DNA of 64,000 nucleotides, from NCBI RefSeq assembly GCF_013459645.1, contig NZ_CP054861.1, positions 3,150,001 to 3,214,000 on the forward strand, given 5' to 3'. Source of the DNA: Martelella sp. NC20. GTDB taxonomy: Bacteria; Pseudomonadota; Alphaproteobacteria; Rhizobiales; Rhizobiaceae. Below are positions 17,159 through 48,428 of this stretch, in pieces. The notes beneath the pieces were generated by a model, which saw only the letters and a program-made list of their open reading frames with translations, had not been told where the DNA came from and searched no databases. Positions within the stretch are counted from its first letter, which is position 1. Every line of letters starts with the position of its first letter. A program made the position numbers and the translations under genes.

Positions 17159-18646
17159 ATGGTTGCCGTAAAAGAGACCGTCGATCAGGTCGCCATGATC
17201 GACGTCGATCAGTACAAATACGGTTTTGAAACGATGATCGAAGTGGACAAGGCGCCCAAGGGCCTGTCCGAGGACATCATCCGTTTCATCTCGCACAAGA
17301 AATCCGAGCCCGAATGGATGCTCGAATGGCGTCTGGAGGCCTATCGCCGCTGGCTCACAATGGTTGAGCCGAGCTGGGCGCGGGTGAACTATCCGAAGAT
17401 TGATTTCAACGACGTCTATTACTATGCCGCGCCGAAATCCTTCACCGGGCCGAAGACGCTGGACGAGGTCGACCCGCAATTGCTGGCGACCTATGAGAAG
17501 CTCGGCATTCCGCTGCAGGAACAGGAGCTGCTTGCCGGCGTGCAGGATTTCCAGCACCAGCCGAAAAGCCGCGTCGCCGTTGACGCCGTGTTCGATTCGG
17601 TCTCGGTCGTCACCACCTTCAAGAAGGAACTCGCGAAAGCCGGCGTGATCTTCATGTCGATCTCCGAGGCGATCCGCGAGCACCCCGACCTGATCAAGAA
17701 ATATCTCGGCTCGGTCGTGCCGCGCGGCGACAATTTCTATGCCGCGCTGAATGCCGCCGTGTTTACCGACGGCTCGTTCGTTTATATCCCGAAGGGCGTT
17801 CGCTGCCCGATGGAGCTGTCGACCTATTTCCGCATCAACGAGAAGAACACCGGCCAGTTCGAGCGCACGCTGATCATCGCCGAGGAAGGCTCCTACGTTT
17901 CCTATCTGGAAGGCTGCACCGCGCCGCAGCGCGATGAAAACCAGCTTCATGCCGCCGTGGTCGAACTGATCGCGATGGATGATGCCGAGATCAAGTATTC
18001 GACCGTCCAGAACTGGTATCCGGGCGACAAGGACGGCAAGGGCGGCATCTACAACTTCGTCACCAAGCGCGGCGATTGCCGGGGCGACAACTCGAAGATC
18101 TCGTGGACCCAGGTCGAAACCGGTTCGGCGATCACCTGGAAATACCCGTCCTGCCTGCTGCGCGGCGACAATTCACGCGGCGAGTTCTACTCGATTGCCG
18201 TTTCCAACGGCCATCAGCAGATCGACAGCGGCACCAAGATGATCCACCTCGGCAAGAACACCTCGAGCCGGATCATCTCCAAGGGCATTTCCGCGGGGTT
18301 TTCCAACAACACCTATCGCGGCCAGGTCTCGGCCCACCGCAAGGCGGAAAACGCGCGCAACTTCACCCAGTGCGACAGTCTCCTGATCGGCAGCAAATGC
18401 GGCGCCCACACCGTGCCCTATATCGAGGCCGGCAATTCATCCGCCCGTTTCGAGCATGAGGCGACCACCTCGAAGATTTCCGAGGACCAACTGTTCTACT
18501 GCATGCAGCGCGGCATTCCGGAGGAAGAGGCGATTGCCCTGATCGTCAACGGGTTTGTCCGTGAGGTGATCCAGGAGCTGCCGATGGAATTCGCGGTCGA
18601 GGCGCAGAAGCTGATCGGGATTTCGCTTGAGGGGAGCGTTGGCTAG
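17159..18646 (+). CDS. sufB: Fe-S cluster scaffold SufB
   Basis: SufB is the scaffold subunit of the SufBC2D complex on which Fe-S clusters are built. The 495-residue length and the blocks [58 protein letters not shown] and [19 protein letters not shown] are diagnostic of the SufBD beta-helix core with its C-terminal helical domain. It starts 109 nt after the cysteine desulfurase stop. In most genomes sufC follows directly; here a palindrome and a GIY-YIG gene intervene. Confidence 0.98.
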
Positions 18647-18709: not shown

Positions 18710-18740
18710 CGTCATCCTCGGGCTTGACCCGAGGATGACG
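18710..18740. repeat. Perfect palindromic unit between sufB and the GIY-YIG gene
   Basis: CGTCATCCTCGGG and CCCGAGGATGACG form a perfect 13-bp stem around the loop CTTGA. It starts 64 nt after the sufB stop and ends 20 nt before the GIY-YIG ATG. It is a single unit of the dispersed palindrome family found in pairs at 19159, 29268, 36502 and 42223. In the suf mRNA it would form a strong hairpin. Confidence 0.85.
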
Positions 18741-18760
18741 AAACGGAGGGGGAGAGTGCA

Positions 18761-19102
18761 ATGACAGGCTATGTCTACATGATGTCGGACAAGCCGCGTG
18801 GCGTTCTCTACACCGGTGTCACGAGTGACATACATGGACGGGCCTGGGAACATAGGAATGGAGTCAAAGACGGGTTCACCGCGAAATACAGGGCGAAGAA
18901 CCTGGTTTGGTTTGAACTTCATCCGAATATCGTTCTGGCAATTCAGAGGGAGAAATCCCTGAAGCGCTATCCGAGGGAATGGAAGGTCAGGCTTGTTGAA
19001 GAGTTGAACCCGAACTGGCTGGATTTGTTCGAGCGGATTGATGAAATCGAGAATGTGTATAGGCCGCATCCTGGAATGCGGAAGTACGGAGATTATAACT
19101 GA
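18761..19102 (+). CDS. GIY-YIG nuclease superfamily protein (UPF0213/COG2827-like)
   Basis: The 113-residue single-domain protein has the GIY-like element GYVYMM (3-8), the YIG-like LYTGVT (16-21), the conserved Arg27 in IHGRAWEHR and the catalytic-type Glu64 in IQREKSLKRY. It closes with W-KVRLVEELNPNWLDLF, as in COG2827 proteins. All key nuclease residues are present. The start has a strong GGAGGGGGAG. The gene sits inside the suf operon between sufB and sufC, framed by palindromic repeats at 18710 and 19159-19312, and its codon use is more AT-rich than suf. It looks inserted. Cellular substrates of this family are poorly known. Confidence 0.9.
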   Translation: MTGYVYMMSDKPRGVLYTGVTSDIHGRAWEHRNGVKDGFTAKYRAKNLVWFELHPNIVLAIQREKSLKRYPREWKVRLVEELNPNWLDLFERIDEIENVYRPHPGMRKYGDYN

Positions 19103-19158
19103 ACGGATGAGGCGGGCGAACGGACACTCGATTTCCACCGCGTCCTCCCCACCCAACG

Positions 19159-19312
19159 GCGTCATCCTCGGGCTTGTCCCGAGGATCCAACCACCGGGCC
19201 GGGAGTGATGAGTGGGTTTGTTCGAACTCGGACTTGCAAAGCAGAATGCGACCCGACACTCCGCTCGTGTGGAGACGTGATTAGATCCTCGGGACAAGCC
19301 CGAGGATGACGC
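19159..19312. repeat. Composite element: two inverted palindromic units
   Basis: Left unit ATCCTCGGG-CTTGT-CCCGAGGAT (19164-19186) is preceded by GCGTC. Right unit ATCCTCGGG-ACAAG-CCCGAGGAT (19285-19307) is followed by GACGC. The two units are mirror images of each other across a unique central segment of about 95 bp. The element lies between the GIY-YIG gene and sufC. Confidence 0.85.
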
Positions 19313-19371: not shown

Positions 19372-20127
19372 ATGCTTGAGATCAAGAACCTGCACGCACG
19401 CATCGCCGAGGACGGCACGGAAATCATCAAGGGGCTGAACCTGACGATTCAGGACGGCGAAGTGGCCGCCATCATGGGCCCGAACGGGTCCGGAAAGTCG
19501 ACGCTCTCCTATATCCTCGCCGGTCGCGAGGATTATGAGGTCACCGAGGGTGAGGTGATCTATAACGGTGAAAACATTCTGGAACTCGATGCCGCCGAGC
19601 GCGCCGCCAAGGGCGTGTTCCTGGCGTTTCAGTATCCGGTCGAAATTCCGGGTGTTGCCACCATGCAGTTCCTGAAGGTCGCAATCAACGAGCAGCGCAA
19701 GGCGCGCGGCGAGGCCGAGCTCTCGACGCCGGACTTCATCCGCAAGGTCAAGGAAGCCTCCGCCAAGCTGAAGATCGACTACGACATGCTGAAGCGGCCG
19801 CTGAATGTCGGCTTTTCCGGCGGCGAGAAGAAGCGCGCCGAAATCCTGCAGATGGCGTTGCTGGAGCCGAAGCTCTGCGTCATGGACGAGACTGACTCGG
19901 GCCTCGATATCGACGCGCTGAAGATCGTTGCCGACGGCGTCAATGCGCTCAGAGCGCCCGACCGCTCGGTGATGGTCATCACCCACTACCAGCGCCTGCT
20001 CGACTATATCGTGCCGGACACGGTCCACGTGCTCTACAAGGGCCAGATCATCCGCACCGGCGGCAAGGAACTGGCCCACGAACTCGAAGCCAATGGCTAT
20101 GCCGATATCATCGGCGAAGCCGCCTGA
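19372..20127 (+). CDS. sufC: Fe-S assembly ATPase SufC
   Basis: SufC is the ABC-type ATPase that drives the SufBD scaffold. In the 251-residue protein Walker A is GPNGSGKST (36-44), the signature is FSGGEKKRAE and Walker B is LCVMDETDSGLD, in which SufC proteins have DE-TDSGLD. VFLAFQYPVEIPGV is the typical Q-loop region. A good GAAGGAAACGAAA ribosome site precedes the ATG. The leader between the repeat element and the ATG is about 60 nt, so transcription is likely to come from upstream unless the insertion brought a promoter. Confidence 0.98.
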   Translation: MLEIKNLHARIAEDGTEIIKGLNLTIQDGEVAAIMGPNGSGKSTLSYILAGREDYEVTEGEVIYNGENILELDAAERAAKGVFLAFQYPVEIPGVATMQFLKVAINEQRKARGEAELSTPDFIRKVKEASAKLKIDYDMLKRPLNVGFSGGEKKRAEILQMALLEPKLCVMDETDSGLDIDALKIVADGVNALRAPDRSVMVITHYQRLLDYIVPDTVHVLYKGQIIRTGGKELAHELEANGYADIIGEAA

Positions 20128-29267: not shown

Positions 29268-29347
29268 GGTCATGCTCGTGCCTGACACGAGCATCCAGGC
29301 CACACGACGAATGCTGCCTGGACCCTCGGGTCAAGCCCGAGGGTGAC
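29268..29347. repeat. Composite element: two inverted palindromic units (short form)
   Basis: Left unit ATGCTCGTG-CCTGA-CACGAGCAT (29272-29294), right unit ACCCTCGGG-TCAAG-CCCGAGGGT (29322-29344), with only 27 bp between them. Outer flanks GTC and GAC match the other copies. Both stems differ from the family consensus by paired changes on the two arms. Confidence 0.85.
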
Positions 29348-29417
29348 ACCCGGAATGGGGATGGCATGTGAAAAATATGCGGACCGGGTGAACGGCCGCA
29401 GCGATTTCCGACAGTCC

Positions 29418-36501: not shown

Positions 36502-36650
36502 GCGTCATCCTCGTGCTTGACACGAGGATCCATGTACCTCTCCTCATGCAACACCGGTTACCGATTTTATGCCCTGAACCATAAGCCTCAATCGTTTTCC
36601 TGCCGAAACCGTGAGAATGGATCCTCGTGTCAAGCACGAGGATTGACGCA
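36502..36650. repeat. Composite element: two inverted palindromic units
   Basis: Left unit ATCCTCGTG-CTTGA-CACGAGGAT (36507-36529), right unit ATCCTCGTG-TCAAG-CACGAGGAT (36621-36643), outer flanks GGCGTC and TGACGC. The stems carry GTG/CAC where other copies have GGG/CCC, a paired change in both units of the same element. Confidence 0.85.
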
Positions 36651-36717: not shown

Positions 36718-36860
36718 GCCTTGACCCGAGCATCCAATCACGTCTGTCGCGAGAGGAGGTGGCGAGGCTTTGCGCTGGGCTGCCCAAGTGCTTTAGACAA
36801 CCGTCCGGGCCTGTCGCAGCACTATGTGCATGGGTCCTCGGGTCAAGCCCAAGGATGAGG
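36718..36860. repeat. Decayed composite palindromic element
   Basis: The left side keeps only one arm (CCTTGACCCGAGCATCCA). The right unit is TCCTCGGG-TCAAG-CCCaAGGA with one mismatch, followed by TGAGG in place of TGACG. It appears to be an older copy of the paired-palindrome family. Confidence 0.65.
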
Positions 36861-42222: not shown

Positions 42223-42338
42223 TGTCATGCTCGGACTTGATCCGAGCATCCATTCTGCTCAAGTCCTTGAGCAGAAAGACTCTTTAGCAAGCGCATGTCG
42301 TGTCGCCCTGGATCCTCGGGTCAAGCCCGAGGATGACG
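42223..42338. repeat. Composite element: two inverted palindromic units
   Basis: Left unit ATGCTCGGA-CTTGA-TCCGAGCAT (42227-42249), right unit ATCCTCGGG-TCAAG-CCCGAGGAT (42312-42334), outer flanks GTGTC and GACGC. The centre also contains CTGCTCAAG-TCC-TTGAGCAG, a third hairpin. Confidence 0.85.
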
Positions 42339-48119: not shown

Positions 48120-48226
48120 AAAAAAAAGGGCCACCAGAAGGGGCCCTTGAAATTGTGAAGGTAAAAACCTCCAGAGGGGAACAGCTGCTGCAATACGAAT
48201 CAAACTTCGTATCGAACGCATCAGCT
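48120..48226 (-). ncRNA. abcR: AbcR-type (alpha-r15) small RNA, distal copy
   Basis: About 107 nt on the minus strand. Promoter TTGCAA-17-CATATC places the start near 48226 at AGCTGATGC. The 3' half shares with the neighbouring copy the block CAGCAGCTGTTCCCCTCT, then GGAGGTTTT, and ends in the terminator AAGGGCC/GGCCCTT plus T-run. Its first hairpin is ATACGAA/TTCGTAT, different from the other copy and without a CUCCC loop. The position in the lsrB region and the tandem arrangement match the Hfq-dependent trans-acting sRNAs AbcR1/AbcR2 that repress ABC-transporter mRNAs. The exact 1/2 numbering is not assigned. Confidence 0.85.
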
Positions 48227-48308: not shown

Positions 48309-48428
48309 AAAAAAAGAGGGCCACCGGAAAAACCGGGGCCCTTTGAGTTAGAAGGTCTCTCAAAACCTCCAGAGGGGAACAGCTGCTGCGGTGCACCAGG
48401 GAGAAGTTGGGCACCACCTGCATCAGCT
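48309..48428 (-). ncRNA. abcR: AbcR-type (alpha-r15) small RNA, lsrB-proximal copy
   Basis: About 120 nt on the minus strand. Promoter TTGTGG-17-CATATA places the start near 48428 at AGCTGATGC. The first hairpin carries ACTTCTCCCTGG, whose CUCCC can pair with Shine-Dalgarno sequences. The shared block CAGCAGCTGTTCCCCTCT follows, then GGAGGTTTT, and the terminator GGGCC...GGCCC plus T7. The 5' CAGCTG can pair with the internal CAGCTG to close the molecule. Known AbcR RNAs down-regulate amino acid and sugar ABC transporters through Hfq. Confidence 0.88.

Follow-up and report, generated by a model that had tools for sequence, protein, structure and literature searches.

GIY-YIG nuclease genes bracketed by CGTC REP sequences: a candidate partner enzyme for a bacterial repeat superfamily

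INTRODUCTION

CGTC REPs form a large superfamily of repeats present in five phyla, mainly in Alphaproteobacteria, according to the parts of the survey of Di Nocera, De Gregorio and Rocco (2013, PMC3733652) that treat their distribution. In the same parts they are presented as apparently lacking a dedicated transposase, and the authors suggest that the enzyme has vanished or that many transposases serve these repeats. This absence claim of the 2013 survey sets no structural criterion, and it does not extend to the loci described here. For the REPIN/RAYT systems, sections of Bertels and Rainey (2011, PMC3116915) describe RAYT genes as single-copy and largely congruent with the species.

Two other kinds of element invite comparison. 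Free-standing GIY-YIG homing endonucleases of the I-TevI/Seg type combine a GIY-YIG domain with a selfish-looking DNA context. The Rhizobium-specific intergenic mosaic element, RIME, is short, intergenic and rhizobial and has two large palindromes; its likeness to the elements described here is by description only.

The present work concerns a 64,000-nucleotide stretch of the Martelella sp. NC20 genome (contig NZ_CP054861.1, positions 3,150,001 to 3,214,000), hereafter called the window. An earlier note on this stretch had described a GIY-YIG gene framed by palindromes in the suf operon and had likened the arrangement to REPs with their RAYT transposases. A search of the open-access PMC literature returned no prior report of a link between GIY-YIG genes and REPs.

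RESULTS

The sufB-nuclease-sufC locus

The window carries a complete GIY-YIG gene (18761..19102, + strand, 113 aa; PF01541, E 2.1e-10) between sufB (17159..18646, + strand) and sufC (19372..20127, + strand), the two host neighbours, whose conserved counterparts in relatives were located by tblastn. The gene is single copy in the genome at E<=1e-3. Upstream, a perfect 31-nt palindrome, CGTC-ATCCTCGGG-CTTGA-CCCGAGGAT-GACG (18710..18740), has a head at each end and lies 20 nt from the ATG. Downstream, a gap of 57 nt separates the stop codon from an inverted palindrome pair (19160..19311). Gene, palindrome and pair are thus arranged as the earlier note had stated. The left CGTC REP of the pair (19160..19189, + strand) has a CGTC head, a 9-bp stem, the loop CTTGT and the tail CCA. 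It is followed by a spacer (19190..19281) whose inner right end, GACGTGATTAG, continues into the tail of the inverted right CGTC REP (19282..19311, - strand), with its head CGTC on the - strand. The heads, at 19160-19163 and 19308-19311, are unpaired, as in the CGTC superfamily. The stem ATCCTCGGG, with loop CTTGA or CTTGT, is of the CGTC REP kind (8-9 bp, outer AT, 4-5-nt loop). A CCA or CTA tail is found on the 19164/19285 pair; in the copy at 18710 a second head takes the place of the tail. As single-stranded DNA, the doublet beside the gene folds into one hairpin, as a REPIN does, at -53.6 kcal/mol (z -10.2).

Allowing up to 3 mismatches, the palindrome motif was found 8 times in the window for 0.04 expected, a count reached in 0/100 shuffles. 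Chance palindromes were thereby ruled out, and the dispersal of the family away from the gene, also claimed previously, was borne out. Heads of the dispersed copies are CGTC, TGTC or GGTC. A diverged REPIN with stems ATGCTCGTG and ACCCTCGGG lies at 29268..29348. Another, at 36503..36648 (stem ATCCTCGTG), is accompanied by an imperfect third REP at 36834-36856, and the same scan gave no REP in the syntenic stretch of M. limonii. A third, of a short class (42223..42338; stems ATGCTCGGA and ATCCTCGGG), has no counterpart at the syntenic position in M. limonii. A clean insertion junction with respect to M. limonii was looked for at window sites A, C and D and not found, the sequences being too diverged.

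Across the 6.1-Mb genome, a scan for the exact stem ATCCTCGGG closed by a CTTGA or CTTGT loop gave 30 copies, as compared to 0 for the reversed control. Inverted pairs with heads outward were detected in 15 of the 16 stretches around dispersed copies outside the window, at a spacing of 113-126 or 51-85 nt; one of the 15 (L195) has an altered head on one side, and the same detector found no inverted pair in the remaining stretch (L191). Multiple copies and dimers, both typical of CGTC REPs, are thus present. Most dispersed REPs of this genome have the loop CTTGA, whereas the suf clade has mainly CTTGT, which we counted against our main reading. Overall, the palindromes of the window are CGTC REPs and the doublets are REPIN-like.

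A second, shorter class of REPIN was also noted in the genome (L196, L199, L201 and window 42227-42334). Its spacing is 82-85 nt, its inner ends read CCAG or CCAT / ATGG or CTGG, and unlike stems are paired. It coexists with the 113-126 nt class, and a second nuclease homologue was not found in the genome. An Rfam scan of the window returned just two ar15 sRNAs (RF02345, E 1.1e-15 and 2.5e-19), tandem copies on the - strand at 48122-48226 and 48312-48428, away from the nuclease locus.

CGTC REPs resemble GTAG REPs in structure, and passages of the 2013 survey mention RAYTs in some species with CGTC REPs (PMC3733652). The repeats might accordingly be moved by RAYT/IS200-type HUH transposases, with the GIY-YIG gene as a passenger. 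However, PF01797 (Y1_Tnp, RAYT-type) had 0 matches in the Martelella sp. NC20 genome despite its 30 exact REPs, while matching in 5 of 14 control genomes, so that a RAYT as mobiliser in this genome was ruled out at the sensitivity used. Moreover, the tyrosine transposase genes checked by Di Nocera et al. included none flanked by CGTC REPs, in the part of the survey concerned (PMC3733652). We consider this explanation extremely improbable.

The GIY-YIG protein

Residues Y6, Y17, H31 and E64 are present in 121/121 rows of the protein alignment, R27 in 120/121 and N83 in 120/120. We take these six to be the catalytic residues of the GIY-YIG superfamily. The dN/dS ratio is 0.083 with respect to the M. 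limonii copy, and 0.04-0.14 in the five computable of six pairs. The nuclease therefore has an intact predicted active site and is under purifying selection. PF01541, the domain of the superfamily, is the only family matched by the window protein, whose nuclease activity is predicted from its sequence. NCBIfam gave no family, and the PDB sequence search at E<=1 gave a sole, weak match, the UPF0213 protein BH0048 (1zg2, E 0.082). Homologues are annotated merely as 'GIY-YIG nuclease family protein' or 'putative endonuclease'.

A role in phage defence, with incidental REPs, could be imagined by analogy with Caulobacter, where parts of one report describe two GIY-YIG genes under XRE regulators shared with phage and suggest a use during infection (PMC10688885). 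The likeness is by superfamily name. None of the PADLOC defence families matched the window protein at E values up to 1, and a defence role predicts neither bracketing by REPs nor their co-variation with the nuclease, both described below. It appears highly improbable.

CGTC REPs bracket nuclease genes in many bacteria

Homologous loci were collected from genome contigs (80), from a search of the order (30, plus 60 more of its places; 235/397 genomes positive) and from a search of the class and phylum (14 new, plus 60 places fetched; 112/397 positive). The sampled loci are the better-scoring matches, from a subset of the positive genomes. Before the final counts, 7 duplicate-genome loci and 11 phylum-search loci repeating others were dropped. 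The suf group comprises loci in the suf slot or more than 68% identical; it includes L127, in the slot but of another clade.

Every locus in the suf slot or of the suf clade (59/59) has a perfect CGTC REP within 250 nt of the nuclease gene. The count is 61/104 for other loci of the same order (61/105 with the REP-less L214), 20/39 for the remaining alphaproteobacterial orders and 20/35 for non-alpha loci. Grouping by identity above 60% instead gave 58/59 suf and 62/104 other same-order loci. Among control ORFs of the same 10-kb loci, 24/381 have a REP within 300 nt and 0/381 have REPs on both sides, as compared to 51/62 suf and 34/108 other nuclease genes with REPs on both sides (before deduplication, with suf assigned by slot). 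The enrichment near such genes relative to other genes, which had been proposed as a check, is therefore present. REP density near the gene exceeds that beyond 500 nt by 58x in suf loci, 29x in the order, 58x in the class and 20x in non-alpha loci.

The orientation of the repeats is also biased. The nearest upstream REP is head-outward in ratios of 48:9 (suf), 34:13 (order), 12:2 (class) and 14:1 (non-alpha), and the downstream REP in ratios of 44:6, 37:14, 10:7 and 11:7, respectively, the downstream bias not being significant outside the order.

These results bear on the idea that gene and REPs share a niche, both being confined to permissive intergenic gaps where they meet by chance. REPs are indeed mainly intergenic in the passages of the survey that locate them (PMC3733652), and the sufB-sufC gap has also taken up another ORF in two Martelella loci (L181 and L182). 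But control genes in the same loci have REPs in 20/277 cases vs 54/54 for suf loci, and chance meeting predicts neither the orientation bias nor the co-variation reported below. A shared niche is very unlikely to suffice.

Universal presence of REPs was ruled out: a perfect REP is missing near about 4 in 10 non-suf homologues of the same order and near roughly half of the homologues outside it. In numbers, a perfect CGTC REP within 250 nt was lacking in 43/104 same-order loci (in addition to L214), 19/39 class loci and 15/35 non-alpha loci. At least 15 of 47 negatives of an earlier, different detector bear variant palindromes, as judged by eye; for L156, L157, L159 and L162, for example, inspection by eye found no variant palindromes either.

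In a plasmid collection, 33 records contain a homologue. CGTC-like palindromes lie no further than 250 nt from the nuclease gene in 9 of the 11 examined; none was found at that distance in the Planktothrix and Spirosoma records. Four of the 9 come from taxa that the CGTC survey names, namely Novosphingobium aromaticivorans, Azospirillum lipoferum, S. meliloti and Neisseria (N. gonorrhoeae). The last case is weak alone because the gene sits there within long arrays.

Homologues in genomes of family f10 (L009, L018, L019, L028, L112, L115 and L119) lie near doublets of another kind, TCCTGCGC, TCCTACGC and TCCTCTGC, and CTTGAATTCG palindromes occur near L009, L018 and L028. These f10 doublets, devoid of the outer AT, may belong to additional REP classes that have a nuclease clade of their own.

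REP type follows nuclease clade

Protein identity correlates with stem similarity (r 0.67 over 7503 pairs), and it does so in the 58 non-suf loci as well (Mantel r 0.53, 0/2000 permutations). The protein tree has 121 rows and is built on few columns, and many of its forks are weak. On this tree, REP architecture requires 17 changes as compared to a shuffled mean of 46.5 (0/300). Stem type, for 60 loci of the order, requires 35 changes vs 44.2 shuffled (0/300).

Some genomes have two nuclease genes with unlike REPs. In both G021 and G254, the suf gene is accompanied by CGTC-ATCCTCGGG and the second gene by CCTC-ATTCCTGTG. In four named-record genomes, the suf gene has the loop CTTGT, and the second gene combines the same stem with CTTGA or close variants of it. 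The later-found plasmid gene L293, with ATTCCTGTG REPs, groups in the ATTCCTGTG clade.

Matching repeats are also found genome-wide. Of 26 genomes, the 3 with a matching gene contain 19, 25 and 32 ATTCCTGTG palindromes; two others have 1 copy each and 21 have 0 (Fisher 3.8e-4, kinship ignored). A ATGGCCGGG family of at least 9 copies is present in 7/7 cognate genomes vs 3/49 others (kinship ignored), and each of the three exceptions (G122, G130 and G342) has further unsampled homologues. With kinship again ignored, at least 5 copies of ATCCTCGGG with CTTGA or CTTGT occur in 10/18 family genomes with a homologue and 0/8 without (26 in all). Similarly, and still ignoring kinship, at least 5 hits of CGTC-1 REPs were obtained in 13/38 homologue-positive vs 9/198 negative non-alpha genomes (p 1.2e-6), and in 7/39 positive vs 1/68 negative genomes of other alphaproteobacterial orders. 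Three REP-rich genomes, G442 (69 hits), G455 (31) and G653 (21), had no homologue at the E cut-off used. Overall, REP type follows nuclease clade more than genome.

The nuclease might alternatively be a host factor that processes hairpins and limits or resolves REP cruciforms, the repeats having another mover and piling up next to a gene that is dispensable. Its purifying selection, single copy and long suf residence do resemble domestication. However, a general processor needs neither a clade-specific REP type beside each paralogue nor outward-facing bracketing, and the Martelella sp. NC20 genome has no Y1 transposase match. We hold this to be unlikely.

History of the suf slot

In 54 of 58 loci fetched because they bear the gene (L031-L088; the L073 contig begins after sufB), the order is sufB-gene-sufC. 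These loci come from Rhizobium, Agrobacterium, Martelella, Mesorhizobium, Roseibium, Pannonibacter, Jiella and others. Among 13 Martelella genomes, the slot holds the gene with REPs in 4, only REPs in 3, and neither in 6. A recent insertion into suf is ruled out since so many genera share the slot and its occupancy is patchy in Martelella (4/13). Likewise, sufB and sufC are contiguous in some relatives, but the description of the pair as normally contiguous does not apply to the 54/58 loci, nor to 4/13 Martelella genomes.

On the 121-row tree, suf location requires 2 changes, or 4 when L127 and the genes without suf neighbour are added. Such suf-clade genes are L059, L079, L082 (with a stop codon) and L085. 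The last lies between an enoyl-CoA hydratase gene and a gene for an AMP-binding enzyme, and all four of its flanking REP arms are ATCCTAGGG. Conversely, nuclease genes of other clades occupy the sufB-sufC gap on A. lipoferum plasmid AZO_p3 (L291) and in G358 (L127); their REPs are CGTC-1, with an 8-bp stem and a 4-nt loop. The earlier note had set against its own proposal the same insertion in distant genera, with no mobility. The first is what we observe, but the patchiness (4/13), the relocations and L291/L127 are at odds with immobility. Since the slot is shared, patchily occupied and at times held by other clades, the gene can be regarded as an old resident, at times lost, relocated or replaced.

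Two of the six Martelella slots devoid of gene and REPs (L181 and L182) hold another ORF in a 498-nt gap, cupin-like by eye; a REP was not found in these two gaps. The sufB-sufC gap seems to take up cargo repeatedly. The empty slots of L177, L178, L180 and L183 are too diverged to fix junctions. Sinorhizobium K101 and C101 were ruled out as empty sites because a collapsed palindrome is present there. The proposed search for empty suf sites in relatives thus yielded slots without the gene in Martelella, but no clean site with a target duplication.

A deletion derivative and turnover of the repeats

On pSymB of S. meliloti Ak57, a REP-gene-REP unit is preceded by a REP-remnant-REP unit. Remnant and full unit are identical at 42/45 nt on the left and at 179/193 nt on the right. 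The remnant is an internal-deletion copy in which both REPs are kept and most of the nuclease gene is lost.

Spacer sequences were compared with the nuclease loci. GACGTGATTAG is also present between the stop codon and the REP in Martelella G408 and in Agrobacterium loci. With this reference, picked after inspection of the data, the 12 long REPINs of the Martelella sp. NC20 genome (the window's included) match at a mean of 8.2/11 positions (0/5000 shuffles), or 4.8/7 without the 4 REP-adjacent bases (14/5040 shuffles).

The counterpart of the palindrome 18710-18740 in G400 and G404 is a complete REPIN doublet, and the palindrome is best read as a collapsed CGTC REPIN. The same pattern, collapsed palindrome vs full REPIN, is seen for L174 vs L172. 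On closely related plasmids of the Rhizobium tumorigenes group, the number of REPIN units 3′ of the nuclease gene differs (two in L293 vs one in L303/L304), which reveals recent turnover of the repeats.

The palindromes could still be regulatory sites (operator, mRNA-stability element or terminator), with dispersed copies serving binding or titration and no mobilisation involved. The strong folding of the doublet and a spacing that is often fixed in many suf loci (REP about 45 nt before the ATG and about 11 nt after the hit end) would fit such a function. It accounts poorly for head-outward doublets that also lie far from the gene, for cognate families of up to tens of dispersed copies, for the Ak57 derivative, which retains both REPs with most of the gene gone, and for slots holding REPs alone in 3/13 Martelella genomes. 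A regulatory explanation is therefore quite unlikely.

DISCUSSION

Bracketing by its own matching repeat in many bacteria makes the GIY-YIG nuclease a good candidate for the missing partner of the CGTC REPs. The supporting lines are adjacency, orientation bias, co-variation, cognate genome-wide families and one deletion derivative. In our opinion the best explanation, and a reasonably probable one, is that the CGTC REPs have a dedicated partner nuclease in the GIY-YIG protein and that REPINs are derivatives or dependants of the unit encoding it. That nuclease and REP are partners at all is very probable. Judging from the sequences, active mobilisation of REPs by the nuclease is slightly favoured. 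The odds are even that REP-nuclease-REP units act as autonomous masters for the whole superfamily (alphaproteobacterial REPs, Neisseria dRS3 and perhaps Rickettsia RPE-4/RPE-6). The earlier analogy with REPs and RAYTs holds as regards enrichment, co-variation, cognate families and the deletion derivative; it does not hold for a recent insertion.

From these data we infer that the nuclease would recognise, cleave and spread REP hairpins. A master unit would be REP-[GIY-YIG gene]-REP, with CGTC heads outward, an intact nuclease and the cognate REP type. Dispersed inverted doublets would be non-autonomous derivatives or dependants, having kept both ends and lost or replaced the gene. The nuclease would recognise the REP hairpin, as an extruded cruciform or as single-stranded DNA during replication, through its head, stem and loop, and would nick the DNA at the CGTC end or close to it. 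Once freed or copied, the element might then be joined elsewhere through host replication or repair. Single two-headed palindromes may be footprints of doublet collapse, by deletion between the direct 9-nt arms. Hydrolysis of DNA by GIY-YIG enzymes involves no covalent intermediate, which leaves strand transfer unaccounted for.

The proposal offers a candidate enzyme for a REP superfamily published without a known one. The enzyme question becomes directly testable with a nuclease that is tiny, specific and purifiable and whose clades each have a cognate hairpin. If correct, the proposal would also assign a function to a widespread family of genes with a generic nuclease annotation.

The repeats themselves correspond to the CGTC superfamily as characterised in the relevant parts of the survey, with head CGTC, TGTC or CCTC, 8-9-bp stem, outer AT, 4-5-nt loop, CCA tail and dimers (PMC3733652). 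Unlike the published CGTC REPs, which in those parts have no transposase gene associated, they are associated here with a GIY-YIG gene family. Unlike the homing endonucleases, the protein has 113 aa and one recognised domain, and the bracketing palindromes are multi-copy without the gene; no intron or fixed homing site was seen.

The closest parallel is the REPIN/RAYT system or REPtron, as outlined in sections of PMC3116915 and PMC8266576. There, too, inverted doublets form one hairpin, singlets resemble remnants, the enzyme gene is single-copy, mostly vertical and REP-flanked, and each enzyme has one REP flavour. The GIY-YIG gene shares single copy, vertical descent and cognate flanking REPs with RAYTs but has no HUH Y1 domain (PF01797), and its repeats have the head CGTC, not GTAG. 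REPIN/RAYT has excision intermediates and cleavage, and the GIY-YIG system is known here from sequence. It would work like REPIN/RAYT, yet it is no member of that system because its enzyme is not an HUH transposase. Our best reading by analogy is thus a REPIN/RAYT-like system presumably run by a GIY-YIG nuclease, in which the partnership is strongly supported and the nuclease would mobilise the repeats. If true, this would be a second, chemically different case of enzyme-repeat co-evolution beside REPIN/RAYT, and a hydrolytic, non-HUH, non-DDE form of intragenomic DNA mobility convergent with it.
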